This document shows positions 52,068 to 64,000 of a stretch of 64,000 nucleotides of DNA, in pieces. The DNA is taken from the NCBI RefSeq assembly GCF_004361815.1, contig NZ_SNWA01000001.1, forward strand, positions 3,224,001 through 3,288,000, in the 5' to 3' direction. The stretch comes from Paraburkholderia sp. BL10I2N1 (GTDB lineage: Bacteria; Pseudomonadota; Gammaproteobacteria; Burkholderiales; Burkholderiaceae). The stretch's first letter is position 1. Each line of letters begins with the position of its first letter. The position numbers and the translations under genes were made by a program. Below the pieces are notes generated by a model. It ran no database searches. It saw nothing but the letters and a program-made list of their open reading frames with translations, and was not told the DNA's origin.

Positions 52068-52103
52068 TCCCCTATCCGTTCACTTTTGATTCAGTCCGCT
52101 GCC

Positions 52104-53687
52104 ATGCATGACAAGATCCTGATTCTCGACTTCGGTTCGCAAGTCACCCAACTGATCGCACGACGCATCCGCGAGGCGCACGTGCTGTCGGAAATTCATC
52201 CCTACGACGTTAGCGACGAATTCATCCGCGAATTCGCGCCGAAGGGCGTGATCCTGTCGGGCGGCCCGAATTCGGTTGTCGACGCGGACACGCCGCGTGC
52301 GCCGCAAGCCGTGTTCGAACTCGGTGTGCCGGTGCTGGGTATCTGCTACGGCATGCAGACGATGGCCGAGCAACTCGGCGGCAAGGTGGACAGCGGCCAC
52401 GTGCGTGAATTCGGTTATGCCGAAGTGCGCGCGCGCAACCATACGAGCTTCCTCGAAGGTATCGAGGACTTCCGCACCGACGAAGGTCACGGCATGCTGA
52501 AGGTCTGGATGAGCCACGGCGACACGGTGCTCGAAATGCCGCCGGGGTTCAGGTTGATGGCGTCGACGGAATCGTGCCCGGTGGCCGCGATGGCCGACGA
52601 GGCACGTCATTTCTACGGTTTGCAGTGGCACCCGGAAGTCACCCACACGGTGCAGGGCCGCGCGATGCTCGAGCGTTTCGTGCTCGGCATCTGCGGCGCG
52701 AAGCCGGACTGGGAGATGGGTCACTACGCCGACGAAGCCGTCGAAACGATCCGCGCACAGGTGGGCAACGAACATGTGATCCTGGGGCTGTCGGGCGGCG
52801 TGGATTCGTCGGTGGCGGCGGCGCTGCTGCATCGCGCGATCGGCGACCAGCTGACCTGCGTGTTCGTCGATCACGGCCTGCTGCGACTCAATGAAGCAGA
52901 GCAGGTGATGGCGACGTTCGCCGATCACCTCGGCGTGAAGGTGATTCACGTCGACGCGAGCGAAGCGTTCCTGTCGAAGCTGGCCGGGGTGACGGATCCG
53001 GAAGCGAAGCGCAAGATCATCGGTGCCGAATTCGTCGAGGTGTTCCAGGCCGAAGCGGCGAAGCTCACCGACGCGAAGTGGCTGGCGCAGGGCACGATCT
53101 ATCCGGATGTGATCGAGTCGGCCGGCAAGGGCAAGAAGGCCGCGCACACGATCAAGAGCCATCACAACGTCGGCGGCCTGCCTGAGACGCTGAATCTGAA
53201 GCTGCTCGAACCGCTGCGCGAACTGTTCAAGGACGAAGTGCGAGAACTGGGTGTGAAGCTCGGCCTGCCGCCGGCGATGGTGTATCGCCATCCGTTCCCG
53301 GGCCCGGGCCTCGGCGTGCGGATTCTCGGCGAAGTGCGGCGCGATTTCGCGGACCTGCTGCGTCGTGCGGACGCCATTTTCATCGAAACGCTACGCACCT
53401 TCATCGACAAGGAAACCGGCAAGTCCTGGTACGACCTCACGAGCCAGGCGTTCGCGGTGTTTCTGCCGGTGAAGAGCGTTGGCGTGATGGGTGATGGGCG
53501 CACGTATGAATATGTCGTCGCGCTGCGCGCGGTGCAGACGCTCGACTTCATGACGGCGCATTGGGCGCATCTGCCGCATGAACTGCTCGGCCACGTGTCG
53601 AACCGGATCATCAACGAGGTTCGCGGGATCAACCGGGTCGTCTATGACATTTCCGGGAAACCGCCGGCAACGATCGAGTGGGAGTGA
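52104..53687 (+). CDS. guaA: GMP synthase (glutamine-hydrolysing)
   Basis: GuaA aminates XMP to GMP. The 527-residue protein has an N-terminal class I glutamine amidotransferase domain with the nucleophile in [14 protein letters not shown] and the [10 protein letters not shown] histidine/glutamate, the ATP pyrophosphatase domain with the P-loop [12 protein letters not shown] at about residues 229-240, and a C-terminal dimerisation domain ending [12 protein letters not shown]. The ATG at 52104 begins [13 protein letters not shown]. Its 3' end is a well-known target for integrative elements, and the sequence changes character right after the stop codon. Confidence 0.97.
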
Positions 53688-53844
53688 CCGGCCTAAAAAT
53701 ATCGTTTAAAATCAAATGGATACGATGTGAGTCGAATGATTCGCACAGGCTCGGAATTGCTGGCTGTTGGTCTGTAACCCATTGAAAAATATGGGCCTTT
53801 TCCATTTCAGTTCTGCGCTCTGCTGAATCCCAGCGGGCGCAATT

Positions 53845-53933
53845 TGACGGTATTTCTGACGGTATACGCGGGCAGCCTGCGCGGGGGCTCGCTTGATACC
53901 GTCAGAGGGTGTCGACGGTATACGTGACGGTAT
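53845..53933. repeat. TGACGGTAT repeat array (possible integrase arm sites)
   Basis: TGACGGTAT occurs at 53845, 53857 and 53925, once inverted (ATACCGTCA, 53896-53904), and as CGACGGTAT at 53913. The plus-strand copies form two pairs, each with starts exactly 12 bp apart. A further eight-base match, TGACGGTA, lies at 54739. Spaced direct repeats beside an insertion target are typical of arm-binding sites for tyrosine integrases. That function is inferred. Confidence 0.65.
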
Positions 53934-54208
53934 CGGGCAACGGCGTGACAGGCGGTTGAGTGTCGCTATGCGGATGATTCTATGTGGCCCGGATTGGAGA
54001 GGTGATCCGGTTTTTGATAAGGATTGCATAGTTTATATCTGTGGGTAGTTAGGATTCGGATTTGCCCGCTCGTCGATCTTGTCGAGCCGGACCCCATGTC
54101 TGATCGAGACTACGTCAATTCACTATCGGCCAGTATCGGTCAGTCGACGCCTGGGCACGCGACGGCCGGAACTACCTGCAATGCAGCCGTTCGACTAGAG
54201 CATTGCCT

Positions 54209-54240: not shown

Positions 54241-55002
54241 TCCAGTATTATTCACTCAACTTTGAACTCGAATGCCTCGCTCTCAGCAGCGCTGCACGTG
54301 TCGGAAAATCTCGCAGTCGCGTTCGGCGAGGAAACGTGTCTTCATTTTTATCGCCTCTTGCGGCGGCACACCATGTGAACCGAACGCCGCTGATCTGTTG
54401 TGGACTTCGATTCGTCGAAGAAATACATGACAACTGTGCTGAACTGAGCCGCATCCTGCCGCGCCTGACACGCGCAGATTCCCTGCGATTGGCTCAGAAA
54501 GACATCGGACCACGCCTTGTTTTTCTGTGGGCCGTCGACTACGCGCAGCGCGTCGCTCGACTATAAACTGCGCGAGACGTCACCTGGCGGATTCTCGTAC
54601 CCGAGCGTCAGACTACCTGTCACTTCGCGCGATTCTTATAGACCTGGTCCGGGGCCGGGTAAAATTGCGTAGATCAAACCCTACTCAGTCCAGAGAGGGG
54701 AAGCGCTGCCCCCATGGTCATCTATGGACAGGATGCCTTGACGGTAGGGCGTTCGTGCATAGCATCTCCAGGACCGACTCCGCTACGCGACACCGGCCAA
54801 AATTGCGCGATTCCACCGATGCAGTGTGGTGACGGAAGAGGAAAGTTGCGGCCCAGCACGCTCGATGGAACTGATTGTCCGCGTCAAAGTCGATGCGTTG
54901 AGATTGACGGACAAGGTCCTCGAAGAACTGCACGCCAAGAGAATACCAAGGCTGCTGAATCGACTAGCCACGTGTCTATCAACCTATGATTACCCGGAAG
55001 TT

Positions 55003-57480
55003 ATGAAAAGCAAGCGCAATGTTGCCAAGGCGGTTAAAGCCCCGAAGCTTTCTCGTACTCACGCCCCGGATCACATGACCCCGGCCGATTGGCAGCGCGC
55101 CTTGCGCCGGCAATTTGGCCGCGAGCAGGTGTTCAGCCTGGAGAATCTCGGAACGGAAATGTTTTTCTCGGAATTTCGGGTGGGTAATCCGGAGTCGAAA
55201 TCCAATTATCGCGTGGCAATCCGCGGGACACGGCCGGGCGAGAACTTCTGTGCCTGTCCCGACTATGCAACCAACGAATTGGGTACCTGCAAGCATATCG
55301 AATTCGCACTGTCCAGACTGGAAAGAAAACGCGGGGCCAAGGCGGCCTTTGCCCGCGGCTACCAGCCTGCATTCTCTGAACTGTATCTGCGGAACGACGG
55401 CGGGCGAACGATCCATTTTCGCGCCGGTACAGATTGTCCACCGAGGATGGCGAAGGCCGCCGCGATGTTGTTCGACGTGTCTGATGGGTGGCGGTTACCG
55501 GAGGCTCGCTTTGACGATCTGGGACGTTTTCTCGCCGGCGCGGCGAAGACCGGTCACGAATTGCGCGCCTACGACGACGCGCTTGATTTCGTCGCAGGCC
55601 GCAGCGACGCTTCGCGTCGCGCCAGGACGCTGGCCGACGTGTTCCCGCGTGGGGCTGCCGACCCGCTGCTGAAGCGGCTACTCAAGGTGCCGCTATACCC
55701 CTATCAGGCCGAAGGCGCGTTGTTTGCGGTGCGCGCCGGGCGTGCCTTGATCTGCGACGAAATGGGCTTGGGGAAGACTATTCAGGCGATTGCAGCAGCG
55801 GAGATTCTGGCGCGACATTTCGGTGTGTCGAGGGTACTCGTGGTCTGCCCGACTTCGCTCAAATATCAGTGGCAGAGTGAGATTCTTCGCTTCTCCGGCC
55901 GAACGTCGCGTGTGATCGGAGGAAGCGTCGTCCACAGGCAGAGCGAATACGCCGAGGAAGATTTCTGCAAGATCACCAACTATGAGAAGCTGAAATCCGA
56001 CCTTGACATAATCGCTGCATGGGCACCGGAGCTTGTGATCGTGGACGAAGCACAGCGCATCAAGAACTGGAACACCATCGCGTCGAAAGCGCTCAAGTGC
56101 ATCGACAGCCCCTATGCCGTGGTGCTGACGGGCACGCCCCTGGAAAATAAGGTGGAAGAACTCGTTTCCATCGTCCAGTTCGTCGACCAGCATCGCCTCG
56201 GACCCACCTGGAAGCTACTGCACGAACATCAGGTCAAGGACGAAGCCGGACGTGTGACCGGCTACACCAGACTTGAGAAGATCAACCAGACCCTGGCGCC
56301 GATCATGATCCGCCGGCGCAAGTCTGAGGTGTTGCGTCAGTTGCCGAACCGCACCGACCAGAATCTGCTGGTGCCGATGACCGAGATGCAGATGGCATAT
56401 CACGCGGAGAACGCGGACGTGGTGGCCAAAATTGTCCAGCGCTGGCGCAAAACGAAGTTTCTGTCGGACCAGGACCAGCGACGACTTACCTGCGCTTTGC
56501 AGAACATGCGCATGTCGTGCAACAGCACCTATCTTCTGGACCAGGAGACCGACCATGGCGTAAAGGCTGAGGAGTTGGCGACGCTGTTTGAATGTCTCTT
56601 CGCCCAGCCGGAAGCAAAAGCGGTGGTGTTCAGCCAATGGACTCGCACCCATGAGATCGTCATTCGCCGGCTCAAGAAACTCGGCATCGGTTATATTAGT
56701 TTCCACGGCGGCGTGCCGTCGGAAAAGCGGACTGCGCTGGTGGAGCGTTTCCGGGACGATCCAGACTGCCGCGTCTTCCTGTCGACGGACGCGGGCAGCA
56801 CGGGGCTCAACCTGCAACACGCCTCGACGCTCGTGAACATGGATCTGCCGTGGAACCCGGCGGTGCTTGAACAGCGCATCGCGCGTATACACCGTATGGG
56901 GCAGCGCAAACCTGTACAAATCGTCAACTACGTTGCCAAGGGAACGATCGAGGAGGGCATGCTGGCGGTGCTGGCTTTTAAGCGCTCCCTGTCGGCGGGT
57001 ATCCTCGACGGCGGCACAGGCGAAATTTCGCTCGGCGGCTCACGTCTCAACCGCTTCATGAAGGACGTGGAAAATGTCACAGGCCGCATGGGCGAAGGCG
57101 AGGCAATGGCCGTGGTGGAAGAGGTCGTCAATGTCGCCGTTGCATCCGACGAATTGAACGGCGCGACAACTGGGGAAGCAAACAGCGGCGATGCCGGAAC
57201 CCGACCCAAAGCCATCGCCGTCGAAACAGCGCCACAAGACGCGAGCCCCGAGCCCTGGTCGGGGCTGTTGCAATTCGGCGTGGAGCTGGTATCAGCGCTG
57301 GGCTCGTCTAACGATGGGGCTGCGGCCTCCCACCCTTGGGTCGAATGCGACCCTGCCACAGGCGCACGCAGCCTCAAGTTGCCCCTGCCGCCGCCGGACA
57401 CGGTAAGGCGCCTTGCAGATGCCCTGTCGGCGATTTCAGACGTTTTGCTGCGCAAGGGTATCGAAGACGGAAGCCGCTGA
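55003..57480 (+). CDS. SNF2-family helicase with SWIM zinc-binding domain
   Basis: The product (825 residues from ATG 55003) is a SNF2 superfamily II ATPase. The N-terminal part has a SWIM-type zinc motif, CACPDYATNELGTCKH (about residues 83-98). The ATPase core has DEMGLGKT (about 253-260), VIVDEAQ (about 345-351), LTGTPLENK, and a C-terminal helicase lobe with FHGGVPSEKR, STDAGSTGLNLQ and RIHRMGQRKPVQIV. A disordered linker and a C-terminal module of about 80 residues follow. Such proteins translocate on double-stranded DNA and move or strip bound proteins. The frame stays open back to a GTG at 54826, so up to 59 more residues are possible. It lies 132 bases before jetA on the same strand. 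Confidence 0.9.
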   Translation: MKSKRNVAKAVKAPKLSRTHAPDHMTPADWQRALRRQFGREQVFSLENLGTEMFFSEFRVGNPESKSNYRVAIRGTRPGENFCACPDYATNELGTCKHIEFALSRLERKRGAKAAFARGYQPAFSELYLRNDGGRTIHFRAGTDCPPRMAKAAAMLFDVSDGWRLPEARFDDLGRFLAGAAKTGHELRAYDDALDFVAGRSDASRRARTLADVFPRGAADPLLKRLLKVPLYPYQAEGALFAVRAGRALICDEMGLGKTIQAIAAAEILARHFGVSRVLVVCPTSLKYQWQSEILRFSGRTSRVIGGSVVHRQSEYAEEDFCKITNYEKLKSDLDIIAAWAPELVIVDEAQRIKNWNTIASKALKCIDSPYAVVLTGTPLENKVEELVSIVQFVDQHRLGPTWKLLHEHQVKDEAGRVTGYTRLEKINQTLAPIMIRRRKSEVLRQLPNRTDQNLLVPMTEMQMAYHAENADVVAKIVQRWRKTKFLSDQDQRRLTCALQNMRMSCNSTYLLDQETDHGVKAEELATLFECLFAQPEAKAVVFSQWTRTHEIVIRRLKKLGIGYISFHGGVPSEKRTALVERFRDDPDCRVFLSTDAGSTGLNLQHASTLVNMDLPWNPAVLEQRIARIHRMGQRKPVQIVNYVAKGTIEEGMLAVLAFKRSLSAGILDGGTGEISLGGSRLNRFMKDVENVTGRMGEGEAMAVVEEVVNVAVASDELNGATTGEANSGDAGTRPKAIAVETAPQDASPEPWSGLLQFGVELVSALGSSNDGAAASHPWVECDPATGARSLKLPLPPPDTVRRLADALSAISDVLLRKGIEDGSR

Positions 57481-57572
57481 GGGTGTGGGATGACAGATTT
57501 CCTCTGGCGTCAAGCCTGGGCGGGCAAATGGCGTATGGTTACAATCGTTGAGTTAACATGAGCGCGCGGCCG

Positions 57573-57594
57573 GATCGTACCAAATGATACGATC
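57573..57594. promoter_or_regulatory. Palindrome upstream of jetA (operator candidate)
   Basis: GATCGTA and TACGATC form a perfect 7-bp inverted repeat around CCAAATGA, ending 18 bases before the jetA ATG. TACAAT at 57540-57545 is a weak -10 candidate upstream, which would place the palindrome in the transcribed leader. It could bind a repressor or fold over the translation start. Confidence 0.45.
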
Positions 57595-57612
57595 GGGCCC
57601 GAGACCCAAGCC

Positions 57613-59067
57613 ATGCCCCTCGACTACTCAACCCTCGACGCCCTTCGCACGCACCATCCAGCATGGCGGCTATTGCGTTCCGACCACGCCCCGCTGGTGA
57701 CGAGCTTCCTGCATCGCGTTTTCGTGATTCCGAACGTGCGCGTGATGTCCGCCGCTGACCTGGCCGAAGCGCTGGAAGACGAACTGTATGCACTGCGCGA
57801 TCGCCTGGGCGCGGACGCCTATCCAAAACGCGCTCTCGACTACCTCAACGACTGGGCGAGCCCGGAAAAAGGCTGGCTGCGCAAGTTCTACCGCCAGGGA
57901 TCGGACGAACCCCACTTCGACCTCACGCCAGCGACGGAAAAAGCGATCGTCTGGCTGGACGCGCTCACGGAACGCAGTTTCGTCGGCACGGAATCACGCC
58001 TGCTGACGTTGTTCGAGTTGCTGCGGCAAATGAGCGAAGGCAGTGAATCCGATCCGGACAAGCGCATTGCCGAATTACACAAGCGTCGTGACGACATCGA
58101 TGCCGAGATCGCGCGGGTGATATCCGGGGATCTCCCACTGTTGGATGACACGGCCATCAAAGATCGCTTCCAGCAATTCATGCAGCTGGCGCGCGACCTG
58201 CTCACTGACTTTCGGGAGGTGGAGCAGAACTTCCGCATGCTCGACCGTCGCGTGCGCGAGCGCATCGCGCTATGGGACGGTTCGAAGGGCGCGCTACTGG
58301 AGGAGATCATGGGCGAGCGCGACGCGATCGGTGACTCGGACCAGGGAAAAAGCTTCCGCGCATTCTGGGATTTCCTGATGTCCAGCACTCGCCAGGAGGA
58401 GCTCACCGAGCTGCTCGCGCGAGTGCTCGCATTGCCCGTGGTGGCCAACTTCAAGCCCGACGCTCGTACCGGGCGTGTGCACTACGACTGGCTGGAAGCG
58501 GGCGAACACACGCAGCGCACGGTCGCGCAACTGTCGCAGCAGCTGCGCCGGTTCCTCGACGACCAGGCATGGCTGGAGAACCGCCGCATCATGGACATCC
58601 TGCGCGGCATCGAGGCCAAGGCACTGGCCGTACGCGACACGCCGCCGGTCGGCGGGATAATGAATCTTGCCGGGTCATCATCCGACGTCGAGCTTCCTAT
58701 GGAACGTCCACTGCACACGCCCGTGCAGAAGCCGGTTATCGCGGATATTGCGCTGGAAGCGGGCGACGTCGATCTAGATGCCGCGGCGCTGTATTCGCAA
58801 GTGGTGGTTGACCGCGCGCAGCTCGCAGGTCATATCCGCCAGGCGTTGCAGGATCGGTCACAAGTGACGCTGCGCGAACTGATTGACTCGTATCCGCTAC
58901 AGCAGGGGCTTGCGGAGCTGGTCGCGTATCTGCAACTGGGCAGCGACGCGTTCAAGACGGTCGTGGACGAAGACAGGCACGAAGTCATCGCGTGGGAAAC
59001 GACAGGTCGCGACGAGAGGCCGAAGGCACGACGCGCGCGTCTGCCACGCGTGATCTTTGTGAGGTGA
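57613..59067 (+). CDS. jetA: Wadjet protein JetA (DUF3375, MukF-like)
   Basis: JetA is the kleisin subunit of the Wadjet SMC complex, bridging the heads of the JetC dimer. The 484-residue product matches the DUF3375 family throughout: the beginning YSTLDALRTHHPAWRLLRSD, the LDALTERSFVGTESRLLTLF segment near residue 115, and ERIALWDGSKGALL. Winged-helix regions lie at both ends and a coiled helical middle between. The DUF3375 plus DUF4194 pair marks type I Wadjet. It is the first of four tightly packed genes, two bases before jetB. No strong ribosome binding site is seen before the ATG, which may mean low expression. Confidence 0.92.
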   Translation: MPLDYSTLDALRTHHPAWRLLRSDHAPLVTSFLHRVFVIPNVRVMSAADLAEALEDELYALRDRLGADAYPKRALDYLNDWASPEKGWLRKFYRQGSDEPHFDLTPATEKAIVWLDALTERSFVGTESRLLTLFELLRQMSEGSESDPDKRIAELHKRRDDIDAEIARVISGDLPLLDDTAIKDRFQQFMQLARDLLTDFREVEQNFRMLDRRVRERIALWDGSKGALLEEIMGERDAIGDSDQGKSFRAFWDFLMSSTRQEELTELLARVLALPVVANFKPDARTGRVHYDWLEAGEHTQRTVAQLSQQLRRFLDDQAWLENRRIMDILRGIEAKALAVRDTPPVGGIMNLAGSSSDVELPMERPLHTPVQKPVIADIALEAGDVDLDAAALYSQVVVDRAQLAGHIRQALQDRSQVTLRELIDSYPLQQGLAELVAYLQLGSDAFKTVVDEDRHEVIAWETTGRDERPKARRARLPRVIFVR

Positions 59068-59069
59068 AG

Positions 59070-59711
59070 ATGGAAGACGAACGGCAAGAGGCGGCGGCGA
59101 ACGCCGATCTGTCGACACTGGCGATTACGCTGCTCAAAGGCGTGATCTATCGCGAGGGTGATGAACGGCTGTGGGGCGCGTTGCTCGACCTGCAGGCGCG
59201 CGTCCGGGACTATGTATCGGTATTGGGCCTGGAACTGGTGCTGGACGAGGCCGAAGGCTATGCGTTCCTGCGCAGCCGTCCCGAGCAAACTGAAGATGAC
59301 GCAGCGCCAAAGCCGCCGCGTTTGATCGCGCGTCGGCCGATCTCTTTTCCGGTCAGCTTGCTGCTGGCATTGCTGCGCAAGAAGCTTGCCGAATTCGATG
59401 CCGGCGGCGGCGATACGCGCCTGGTCCTGTCGCGCGACGACATTGTCGAGCTCGTCAGGGTCTTCCTTCCGGATAGCAGCAATGAAGCGAGGCTGATCGA
59501 TCAGATCGAGACGCACATCAACAAGATCGTCGAGCTAGGCTTCCTGCGCCGGTTGAAGGTCACGAGCGGCCCGTCGAGTTTCGAAGTGCGGCGCATCCTG
59601 AAGGCGTTCGTCGACGCGCAATGGCTGTCGGACTTCGACGCCCGTCTCGACGCGTATCGCGCGCAACTGGTGGACACGACGGCAGGGCCGGGAGTTGATG
59701 TCGATGAATGA
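59070..59711 (+). CDS. jetB: Wadjet protein JetB (DUF4194, MukE-like)
   Basis: JetB is the KITE-type partner (MukE-like) that clamps the kleisin JetA. The 213-residue product has [19 protein letters not shown], a winged-helix first half, and an acidic end. The ATG at 59070 is chosen because GAGG lies five bases before it, overlapping the end of jetA. The longer open frame would read back into jetA. It overlaps jetC by eight bases, so the two are made in a coupled way. Confidence 0.9.
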
Positions 59712-62700
59712 GACGAACGAGGCGATTCCGCAACTGCTGGAGCTGGATTTTCTCGCTGACGACACGCTCTCCGGCTTTCGCCTGAGCCGCCTGGAAGTTT
59801 TTAACTGGGGCACATTTGACGGGCGCGTATGGACGCTTCAGCTGGACGGCAAGAACGGTCTGCTCACGGGTGACATCGGCTCGGGTAAATCGACGCTGGT
59901 CGACGCCATTACGACTTTGCTCGTCCCCTCCCAGCGCATCGCTTACAACAAGGCGGCAGGAGCGGACAGCAAGGAACGGACGTTGCGCTCTTACGTACTC
60001 GGGCATTACAAGTCCGAGCGCAATGAGGTGACCGGCACAGCCAGGCCCGTTTCCTTGCGGGACCGCAACAGCTACTCCGTGATCCTCGGCGTGTTCCACA
60101 ACGCCGGGTATGACCAGACGATCTCGCTCGCGCAGGTCTTCTGGATGAAAGAGGCGCAGAGCCAGCCCATGCGTTTTTACGTGGGCGCAGAACGGAATAT
60201 GTCGATAGCGACGGATTTCGTCCACTTCGGTTCCGATATCGCGCAATTGCGTAGAAAGCTGCGTGGCCTGGGTGCGGAAATCGAAGACACCTTTCCGAAA
60301 TATGGCGCATGGTTTCGCCGGCGTTTCGGCATCGACAATGAGCAGGCGCTCGAGCTGTTTCATCAGACGGTGTCAATGAAGTCGGTTGGTAACCTGACCG
60401 ACTTCGTGCGTAGCCACATGCTCGAGCCGTTCGACGTCGCGCCTCGTATTGCAGCGCTGATCTCGCACTTCGACGATTTGAATCGCGCGCATGAGGCGGT
60501 GCTCAAGGCGAAGCGTCAGGTGGAACTGCTGAAGCCCCTGGTGGTGGACTGCGACCAGCACGGCGCACTGGCGGCGGAACAGGAGGCTTCGCGCGTTTGC
60601 CGTGATGCGCTGAAGCCGTATTTCGCCGAATTGAAGCTTGGCCTGCTGGATCGGCGCTTGAAGTTGCTCGCCGAAGATCATGCACGCGTTGCCGCGCAGA
60701 AGGAGCGGCGCATCGAGCAGTGCGATCAGGAGCGAACGGAAGCCGATCGCCTCAAGCGAGCGATTGCAGAGCAAGGCGGCGACCGGCTGGAGCAGCTTGC
60801 TGCCGATATCCGCGACGAGGAGCGCGAGCGCAATCGACGCCAGCAGCGCGCCGAACGTCATGCGCAATTGCTTGCTGCGATTGGTGAAACCCCCACCTCC
60901 GTCGAGTCTGCCTTTATCGCGCAGCGGCAGCAGGTGGCCGATCTGCGCGAGGGCGTGAGTCAGGTAGAGGCCGATCTGCAGAACCAGATCACTGAGTGGG
61001 GCGTGTCGCTGCGCGAGGGTAAGCGCGAACATGACGTGCTTGGTGAGGAAGTTGCGAGCCTGAAGGCGCGACGCAGCAATATTCCCAAGGAGCAGGTTGC
61101 CATGCGTGCAGCGTTATGTGCTGCACTCGGTCTCGACGAAGACAGCATGCCGTTCGCGGGTGAACTGATCCAGGCACGTGAAGAGGCGCGCGAATGGGAA
61201 GGCGCCATTGAGCGGGTGCTGCATAACTTTGGCCTCTCGCTTATCGTGCCCGATGTGCACTATTCCGATGTCGCCGCGTGGGTGGATCGAACGCATCTCG
61301 GGGGACGACTCGTTTATTTCCGCGTGCGACCTACGCGCGACCAGGACATCGCCGAGTTGCATCGCGATTCGCTGGTGCGCAAAGTGGCGATCAAACCGGA
61401 CTCGCCATTCTACGGCTGGTTGGAGCGGGCGCTGGCACAGCGCTTCGATTACGCGTGCTGCGCGACACAGGAGCAGTTTCGTCGCGAGTCCCGTGCGCTG
61501 ACTCGCACAGGGCAGGTCAAGGCGCCCGGCGAACGCCATGAGAAAGACGACCGCCATCGCCTCGACGACCGCAGCCGCTACGTCCTCGGCTGGAGCAACG
61601 CCGCCAAGATCGCCGCGCTGGAAGGACAACTGCGTGCGCTCGAGATGCGCCTCGGCGGCATCGGTAGCCAGATCGCCAAAGCGCAGGGCGATCAGACGAA
61701 GCTGCGGCGGCAATTGGAGGTGTTGGCGGCGCTCAATGAGTTTAATGATTTTCGTGAGCTGGATTGGCAGAGTTGCTCAGCCACAATTGCTCGCCTGCAG
61801 GACGAGAAAGCGCGTCTGGAGGCTGCCAGCAATGCGTTGCTGGAACTGGCCGCGCAACTCGAGTCGATGCAGGCGGCGCTGAAGGGCAGCGAGAAGGCAT
61901 TGTCGGACGTCAACAGGGAGTTAGGCGGTATCGACGCCAGACGCGAAGCGGCCGATGCATTGCGGGAGCAAACCGCGGCATGGCTGGCCGAGATCGCCCA
62001 CGATACCCGCGAGCGGCTGGAAGCGCTGCGCGCGCAGATTCTGGGCGAGCATCAGCTTTCGGTCGAGTCATGCGACAACCGTGAACGCGAACTGCGTGAC
62101 GCGTTGCAGGCACGTATGGACGCTGAGGCCAAGCGCCTGGATCGCCTCACCGAGCGCATCATCAAGAGCATGTCGACGTTCAAGGATGCATACAAGCTCG
62201 ACACAGCCGACTTCGACGCCAGCCTCGAAGCCGCGTTCGAGTATCGCGAGCTGCTGGCGCGCCTGAATACCGACGATCTTCCGCGCTTCGCGGCTCGCTT
62301 CAAGGAGCTATTGAACATCAACACAATCAACGAGATTGCCAACTTCAACGGGCAACTGGCACGGGAACGCGAAACGATCAAGGAGCGCATCGCCCGCATC
62401 AATGAATCGCTGGCTCAAATCGACTACGACCCAGGTCGTTATATCGTGCTGGAATGCCAGGCCAGCCCCGACGCAGACATCCGCGATTTCCAGGCGGAGC
62501 TGCGAGCCTGCACGGAAGGTACGCTGACCGGTTCGGACGATGCACAGTATTCGGAAGCCAAGTTTCTGCAGGTCAAGGCGATTATCGACCGGTTTCGCGG
62601 TCGCGAAGGGCTGTCAGATCAGGACCGCCGGTGGACTACGAAGGTCACCGACGTGCGCAACTGGTTCCTGTTTGCCGCAAGCGAACGCTGGCGCGAAGAT

Positions 62701-63081
62701 CACACGGAGTACGAGCACTATTCGGATTCGGGCGGTAAGTCGGGTGGGCAGAAGGAAAAGCTGGCCTATACGATTCTCGCGGCCAGCCTCGCGTATCAGT
62801 TTGGTCTGGAATGGGGCGCGGTACGGTCACGCTCGTTCCGGTTCGTGGTCATCGACGAAGCGTTCGGACGCGGCTCGGACGAGTCCGCGCAATACGGGCT
62901 CAAGTTGTTCAGGCAGCTCAATCTGCAACTGCTGATCGTCACGCCGCTGCAGAAGATTCATATTATCGAGCCGTTCGTTTCCAGCGTCGGCTTCGTGCAC
63001 AACGATGAGGGGCGTGCTTCGAAGCTGCGCAATCTGTCGATCGAGGAGCATCTGGCGCGCAAGGCGGAGGGCTCAACGTGA
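59704..63081 (+). CDS. jetC: Wadjet protein JetC (SMC-like ATPase, MukB-like)
   Basis: JetC is the SMC motor of Wadjet. The 1125-residue protein has the N-terminal head with Walker [10 protein letters not shown] (residues 56-64), long Glu/Gln/Arg-rich coiled coils, a hinge-like middle region, and the C-terminal head with signature [15 protein letters not shown] (about 1012-1026) and Walker [14 protein letters not shown] (about 1047-1059). Dimers extrude DNA loops and sense small circular DNA. The conserved segment [20 protein letters not shown] is typical of this family. Of three clustered starts (TTG 59695, ATG 59698, ATG 59704), the last lies nine bases after GGAG. All ATPase residues look intact, so the system should be active. 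Confidence 0.93.
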
Positions 63082-64000
63082 GCTGGACGACCGCCGCCGA
63101 CCTGAAAGCGCAGGTGCGCCGCTTGTGGGAGCGGGGTGATCTGTTGCGCAGCATGGTTAGCGAAAGCGACGATGCTGCGCCGAATGCCGAGCTTATCGCT
63201 CGCGAAGAAGCGGAGATTGGCCTGAGGTCCGGCTGTGCGTTCCCGCTGCGACTCGTCCTGAAGGGACCTGCTTCGGCCGAACTCACCGAGCGTTTCCAGG
63301 CCGTACGTGAATGGATAGCTGAGCTTGTCGCTATCGCGCAGATCCGCATCGAATGGCGCGAGTTCAATCATCGTGTCCTGGGTGTTCAGCGCGTGCCGCA
63401 GGCGGTCTGGATCGACGATCTGGACAGTGCGCTGGCGATGATCGGCAAGCGTGGCGACGCGGCGCGTTTCGGCCGGTTGCTCACCCTCGTGGGCTCGCGG
63501 CAGCCGACGCTGCTGGCATGGTTTCGCCGGCGTCCGCTGCAGGCACTTGAGCTGGCTAACGAATGTGAGCGTTTGCTGGCGGTGGTCGGCTGGATCGTAC
63601 AGCATCCGCGTCCCGGCATTTACCTGAGACAAGTGGACATTGCCGGTGTGCACAGCAAGTTCATCGAAAACTGGCGCGGTGTGCTGGCAGAATGGCTCGA
63701 TCTCGTACTTCCGCCGGAGGTCGTCGCGGTAGAAAGAAACCGGGGGGCGCAATTCGTGGCCCGTTACGGCTTCCTCGACAAGCCTGCCCGTATCCGGTTT
63801 CGCGTGCTCGACGCGCAGTTGCCAATGCTTCCCGGCCCTGCGCTCCCCGATATCGCAGTCGATGCAGACAGCTTTGCCGCGCTGGCCGTGCCGATCCGCC
63901 GGGTATTCATCACCGAGAATGAGACGAACTTCCTCGCATTCCCGCCTCTAGCCGATACGATCGTCGTCTTCGGTGCAGGCTATGGATGGGAAGCGCTGTC
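63078..64000 (+). CDS. jetD: Wadjet protein JetD (DUF3322-DUF2220, TOPRIM nuclease), partial
   Basis: JetD is the nuclease that cuts the plasmid once the SMC motor has reeled it in. The visible 307 residues, uninterrupted by stops, have the N-terminal domain ([34 protein letters not shown]) and the beginning of the TOPRIM domain with [14 protein letters not shown] (about residues 273-286), which carries the first catalytic glutamate. The metal-binding aspartates and the C-terminus lie past the window edge. The GTG at 63078 overlaps the jetC stop as GTGA. No other start gives a full N-terminus. Confidence 0.9.

Follow-up and report, generated by a model that had tools for sequence, protein, structure and literature searches.

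A complete type I Wadjet system behind guaA in Paraburkholderia sp. BL10I2N1, with an SNF2-family helicase gene as its neighbor

The right-hand end of a 64,000-nucleotide stretch of the Paraburkholderia sp. BL10I2N1 genome (contig NZ_SNWA01000001.1, positions 3,224,001 to 3,288,000; G000:C1:3224001-3288000), referred to below as the window, carries four genes that, judged by their sequences, form a complete and ordinary type I Wadjet (jetABCD) system, a system of a known kind. The genome comprises 9.20 Mb in four contigs (4.68, 3.41, 0.73 and 0.38 Mb). The window contains jetA, jetB and jetC in full and jetD up to codon 307; the last 325 bases of jetD lie past the edge and were read from the adjoining genome sequence (L002). 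All four are co-directional, contiguous and open:

57613..59067, + strand: jetA (DUF3375, kleisin/MukF-like), 484 amino acids; PADLOC JetA1, 7.6e-228; PF11855, 529 bits; PDB JetA chains of 8dk1, 8q72 and 8as8
59070..59711, + strand: jetB (DUF4194, MukE-like KITE), 213 amino acids; PADLOC JetB1, 2.2e-97; PF13835, 158 bits; PDB 8as8 and 9qxt, 1.1e-05
59704..63081, + strand: jetC (SMC ATPase), 1125 amino acids; PADLOC JetC1, 1656 bits; PDB 8dk2, 5e-71, and 8as8, 6e-63
63078..64000, with the stop at extended position 64325 (L002:6078-7325), + strand: jetD (DUF3322 and TOPRIM nuclease), 415 amino acids; Pfam JetD_C, 197 bits; PDB MksG 8b7f and JetD 7til and 8q72

These coordinates confirm the arrangement proposed in an earlier note on the window, in which DUF3375, DUF4194, SMC-like ATPase and DUF3322/TOPRIM genes follow one another nearly touching. 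Depending on the start codon, jetA and jetB are either separated by 2 bases or overlap in a GTGA; jetB overlaps jetC by 8 bases and jetC overlaps jetD by 4. Alternative starts are available for jetB (GTG at 59064 or 58992) and jetC (TTG at 59695 or ATG at 59698), and in the PADLOC scans JetB was taken from 59064, JetC from 59695 and JetD as its first 307 residues only. Directly before jetA, at 57568-57599, there is an imperfect inverted repeat, GGCCGGATC-N14-GATCGGGCC, a possible operator or leader hairpin. Both arms are perfect in the related loci L043 and L201; L039, L041 and L202 retain them in part, and L203 lacks them. No Rfam family matched the window at gathering scores.

The best PADLOC models were of type I for all four proteins: JetA1 (755 bits, E-value 7.6e-228), JetB1 (323 bits, 2.2e-97), JetC1 (1656 bits, 0) and JetD1 (314 bits, 3.8e-94 for the first 307 residues). 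E-values this low exclude chance matches. Type II and III models matched JetC weakly (JetC2, 26 bits; JetC3, 20 bits), and the other three proteins matched no models but those of type I. Pfam gave DUF3375 for JetA, DUF4194 and MksE for JetB, AAA_29 and SbcC_Walker_B for JetC, and DUF3322 (residues 50-208, profile positions 23-190 of 190) and JetD_C (residues 231-409, profile positions 1-179 of 179) for JetD. Sequence matches in PDB pointed the same way: JetC to 8dk2 (5e-71) and 8as8 (6e-63), JetA to 8dk1 (2e-24), JetB to 8as8 and 9qxt (1e-5), and JetD to MksG 8b7f (1e-22; the best, 84 bits), JetD 7til (2e-9) and 8q72 (5e-9). NCBIfam returned nothing for JetA, JetB or JetD, and its JetC matches (SMC_prok_B, 48 bits; TrlF, 21; ASRP, 19) were all far below the cut-offs. 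No family named after MukB, MukE or MukF was matched by the Jet proteins in Pfam or NCBIfam at E-values up to 0.001; both collections presumably contain such models. The type I assignment of the earlier note was thus borne out by profiles and PDB matches, and the catalytic residues agree with it as well. In JetC, the three motifs already described as intact were located at G56-T64 (Walker A, GDIGSGKST at 56), from residue 1013 (signature, SGGQ) and at D1051-E1052 (Walker B, motif from 1045). A truncated jetD can be rejected, as the frame continues past the window edge to its full 415 codons and encodes the TOPRIM acidic residues E280, D323 and D325. In the alignment, E280 falls on position 248 of the E. 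coli JetD(E248A) chain; D323 and D325 lie within YWGDIDTHGF, opposite YWGDMD in the two solved JetDs and YWGDLD in MksG.

Compared with the type I Wadjets of Pseudomonas aeruginosa PA14 (8dk1-8dk3, 7til) and E. coli (8as8, 8bfn, 8q72), the locus encodes the same four proteins; JetC aligns over residues 24-1114 of 1125, and the TOPRIM glutamate and DxD are conserved. In contrast, the sequences are distant (JetB reaches an E-value of only 1e-5), and an SNF2-family gene lies directly upstream. A second relative is MksBEFG, also an anti-plasmid system, whose MksG (8b7f) is the best PDB match of JetD and whose MksE profile is matched by JetB (70 bits). Unlike in MksBEFG, JetA, JetB and JetC matched only PDB chains named JetA, JetB or JetC (E-values up to 0.001).

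Related systems are patchily distributed. JetA family matches occur in 27 of 144 genomes of the genus; JetA protein matches, some of them fragments, occur in 44 of 398 genomes of the family and, our own counted, in 37 of 369 of the class. For comparison we used 67 loci, mainly those with the best scores: 27 from the genus, ours among them; 24 additional family loci, drawn from 23 of the 37 family genomes outside that set; and 16 class loci, drawn from 16 of the 36 other class genomes. Matches to all four genes that cover 80% or more of the query were obtained in 24 of the 27 genus loci, in all 24 further family loci and in 10 of the 16 class loci; among the remaining loci, several run off short contigs. 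The genus exceptions are L032, with half of jetD, L056, which runs off its contig, and L057, with jetA fragments only. Two relatives, L043 and L201, retain 90-95% protein identity over all four Jet proteins.

Upstream, the operon is preceded by guaA and a repeat segment:

52086..53687, + strand: guaA, with GAGTGGGA, the core reported for guaA island integration sites, in its 3' end at 53676-53683
53840..53952, + strand: GACGGTAT-repeat segment after guaA, with an 85% identical copy at extended 67124-67234 (L002:10124-10234)

The 3' side of guaA is a recurrent home of Wadjet in Burkholderiaceae, an observation that is new here. GuaA was found within the sampled DNA of 10 of the 51 Burkholderiaceae Wadjet loci and in no class locus (0 of 16). 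As controls, five other proteins encoded in the window, which we take to be LigA, RpsB, Frr, PpsA and BamA, were each found in none of the 67 Wadjet loci (0/51 in Burkholderiaceae). The site itself is known: a passage of PMC7775301 describes the guaA 3' end as an island integration site with core GAGTGGGA, e.g. for ICERspD18B; guaA is named in parts of PMC5357655 and PMC5704250 as a site at which mobilizable elements, streptococcal ones and others, integrate; and an excerpt of PMC11680222 reports a defence island flanked by guaA in Stenotrophomonas maltophilia.

As in the guaA genomic islands exemplified by ICERspD18B (PMC7775301), the cargo here sits behind a guaA 3' end with GAGTGGGA. Unlike them, it has no guaA-adjacent integrase, and the 85 kb scanned did not yield a convincing second GAGTGGGA core. 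By eye, no integrase was seen in the 1.5 kb after guaA, and searches for the 15-base guaA-end core and for GAGTGGGA over the 85 kb returned two other GAGTGGGA matches, about chance level, and no persuasive further copy of either. Tyrosine recombinase genes lie further on (L002:16105-18284 and L003:5057-5677). In the same-genus locus L258, a tyrosine integrase (PF00589 plus an arm-binding domain) directly follows guaA and GACGGTAT repeats, and L247, L253 and L261 resemble this arrangement by eye. With neither an adjacent integrase nor a convincing second core, the locus is placed at the guaA site but not classed as an intact integrative element. The GACGGTAT-repeat segment is a probable remnant of an integrative element end; its second copy lies 2.8 kb beyond jetD, and the two copies bound a 13 kb stretch. 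We read the surroundings as a decayed or layered island behind guaA, whose right end is not cleanly delimited by a second core. A tRNA-borne island was rejected, as no tRNA was found in the window or L002.

A periplasmic substrate-binding protein fragment, probably a truncated gene, overlaps the end of jetD (L002:7276-8088), and the downstream GACGGTAT-repeat copy interrupts an open frame that by eye resembles a membrane-protein gene. Behind the island, L002:10995-19272 holds a transposase gene that looks IS21-like by eye and has a Mu-type C-terminal domain, a fragment of a group II intron reverse transcriptase, an IS3-like element and three consecutive tyrosine recombinase-like genes; the IS3 genes and the third recombinase were recognized by eye only. 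Elsewhere at the guaA site, an AbiEi antitoxin gene (Pfam AbiEi_3) is present in L203 (scanned as L094, the same locus) and a homolog in the guaA-linked Wadjet locus L202, which suggests that the site collects several defence modules.

Our full reading is that the locus holds a complete, probably functional type I Wadjet, probably acquired horizontally as cargo of a partly decayed island behind guaA; we put its probability at roughly 0.9. In such a system, JetABC would act as an SMC motor, with JetC as the ATPase, JetA as the kleisin and JetB as the KITE subunit, that extrudes DNA loops. On a small circle, extrusion would exhaust the DNA, the complex would stall and the autoinhibited TOPRIM nuclease JetD would be released; the freed JetD would then cut the circle irrespective of sequence, and the chromosome and large replicons would be spared. 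For this locus, we infer loop extrusion, size sensing and cleavage from published work on other Wadjet members. In the relevant part of a review (PMC10586767), JetABCD is described as ATP-dependent, as cutting circular but not linear DNA without sequence preference, and as acting on plasmids below about 50-100 kb, with JetD probably autoinhibited until JetABC releases it. The strain may accordingly be expected on reasonable grounds to resist plasmids, but such a prediction does not guarantee the phenotype. Published cases fall on both sides: an excerpt of PMC12645576 states that deletion of a predicted type III Wadjet from Cupriavidus necator left electroporation efficiency and plasmid stability unchanged under the conditions tested, and a passage of PMC12287153 reports a Wadjet system that blocks plasmid transfer into Clostridium cellulovorans. 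All four contigs of the present genome exceed the published 50-100 kb limit (the smallest is 381 kb), and six PLSDB plasmids with a JetD relative (E-values up to 1e-20) range from 186 kb to 2.66 Mb. Both observations are consistent, if weakly, with size-limited action.

Several observations weigh against the full reading. The N-terminus of JetB is about 35 residues shorter than that of E. coli JetB (query residue 24 aligns with chain residue 59), and the string IFDR is absent from JetB with any of the starts considered, although the starts are predicted and the place of the string in E. coli JetB was not seen. Since JetB is shorter and shows no IFDR, its coupling to JetD may differ. On the side of replicon sizes, the same-genus carrier G091, in which each of the four genes is matched, includes a contig of 22.9 kb (L288, contig 5); if it is a circular plasmid, it could be a small replicon coexisting with a type I Wadjet. 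Contigs below 100 kb make up 1 of 24 in seven carriers and 0 of 19 in five non-carriers, a comparison that shows no difference and has no power. The carriers were our own genome and, out of seven others with no more than five contigs, all but G124, which has jetA fragments only; G120 was kept although its jetD is half. The non-carriers were five of the nine with at most five contigs among the genomes listed, with 97 further genomes outside that listing. Depletion of small replicons in Wadjet carriers is unsupported by this comparison.

Only one of 17 JetB frames inspected by eye over their first 110 residues (L215, IFDD) comes near IFDR, with some of the stretches falling short of the N-terminus, and the motif is not known to be family-defining. 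The JetB N-terminus is of the same kind in L043 and L203, so that it looks like a lineage trait rather than damage, start codons being predictions. In one studied complex, the N-terminal IFDR motif of JetB was reported to contact JetD (PMC10586767).

The strongest competitor of the full reading is a silent or decaying island remnant, in which the sequence is complete but unexpressed or uncoupled from JetD. The integrase missing by eye after guaA, the binding-protein fragment over the jetD end and the transposase genes downstream would fit such a remnant, as would the half jetD of the relative L032 and the result that no sigma-70-type promoter was matched in 57200-57800. However, none of the four frames is broken and the motifs are intact, and the 90-95% identity is kept over four proteins in L043 and L201; we therefore consider a remnant unlikely.

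The gene that separates guaA and its repeats from jetA, like the guaA setting itself, was absent from the earlier note:

54826..57480, + strand: SNF2-family helicase, not assigned to the Wadjet system; Pfam SNF2-rel_dom and Helicase_C; SWIM-like CxCx11CxH at residue 142

It ends 132 bases before jetA, and its true start probably lies closer to residue 60 (about 55003), the point from which most relatives align. The CxCx11CxH pattern was found by script and is what we take to be a SWIM-like motif; Pfam gave no SWIM match for the protein. Its PADLOC and NCBIfam matches were to SNF2 domains of different families, and those in NCBIfam fell far short of the curated cut-offs. Its recurrence next to Wadjet is the only mildly surprising feature of the locus. 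Close relatives (E-values below 1e-200, two candidates scored per genome among the family matches listed) occur in 5 of the 398 family genomes, and in each of these the gene stands beside a JetA match (Fisher p = 1.3e-5, a test that ignores relatedness and takes two draws of 398 genomes as the same). Among the 67 Wadjet loci, 7 have a close relative, and L232 has only a 28% SNF2 match; with so few, SNF2 as a constant part of Wadjet was rejected. Eight genomes in all, Candidatus Nitrotoga included, combine SNF2 and Wadjet (L062, L069, L094 and L136 duplicate four of them), and they do so in three arrangements. In our locus, L043, L201 and L203, guaA, SNF2 and jetABCD follow one another in the same direction; in L048, L207 and L210, SNF2 faces a converging jetDCBA, with guaA seen in the latter two; and in Candidatus Nitrotoga (L070), SNF2 follows jetABCD in the same direction about 120 bases away, in an assembly with no good GuaA match. 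The Paraburkholderia ultramafica Wadjet (L062/L043) shares the order guaA-SNF2-jetABCD with Jet proteins 92-94% and SNF2 89% identical, but differs in the DNA directly behind guaA (a transposase-like open reading frame by eye).

These patterns raise the possibility that SNF2 functions as an accessory to Wadjet in this lineage, e.g. clearing proteins ahead of the motor or acting on the cut plasmid, as the five-of-five adjacency to JetA and the three arrangements, one of them lacking a good GuaA match, would suggest. On the other hand, a wider sample, consisting of the best 80 of 483 relatives across Proteobacteria (30 of the 80 loci under 15 kb), argues against it. Jet genes lie near only five of the 80, four of which are genomes already counted in the family and genus sets, and none are found in the sequence available for the other 75. 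In the same 80 loci, guaA is present in 25, always upstream and on the same strand, and 17 have a homolog of an L137 gene with an AEP-TOTE domain (the domain scan covered L137 only); in a clustering run, such a homolog lay upstream on the same strand in 15 loci, at a median distance of 72 bases. Moreover, three of the seven closest Wadjets (L039, L041 and L202) do without SNF2, its copy in L203 has a stop codon beside four jet genes, and PADLOC and NCBIfam liken the protein only to SNF2 domains of other families. On this evidence, the simplest reading is a guaA-tied defence-island gene that shares its site with Wadjet. Shared use of one hotspot is thus likelier than a working link; a partnership is possible, but we regard an accessory role as quite improbable. 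Slightly more doubtful still is the specific proposal that a guaA-linked lineage of Wadjet has recruited the SNF2 helicase, with its SWIM-like motif, in at least three arrangements as an optional fifth component, one that would widen the range of clearable targets, e.g. to protein-covered or larger circles.

In the open-licence PMC literature, passages of PMC7251935 and PMC10952713 state no link between Wadjet and SNF2, and no publication on Wadjet in Paraburkholderia was found among open-licence PMC papers. The snf2 that appears in parts of PMC5357655 and PMC5704250, which leave Wadjet unmentioned, is a gene of Tn5252-type elements and not the gene described here.

That the operon is instead a chromosomal MukBEF/MksBEF condensin for chromosome segregation with JetD as a bystander is very improbable and was rejected: the MksE match of JetB and the MksG match of JetD lend it something, but the type I Jet models are best in PADLOC, no MukB/E/F-named family is matched in collections thought to hold such models, presence is patchy (27/144 genus genomes), 10 of 51 family loci are guaA-linked, and jetD overlaps the end of jetC.

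For anyone transforming this strain, the size of a circle rather than its sequence would be the expected barrier. The ecological point is that the 3' side of guaA repeatedly houses Wadjet in Burkholderiaceae, while the SNF2 gene shares the guaA site broadly in Proteobacteria, in some loci with the conflict systems TOTE and AbiE. If SNF2 does assist Wadjet, the arrangement seen here would bear on the way in which a defence motor that extrudes loops deals with obstacles on its DNA, a question under active study (PMC12647877).

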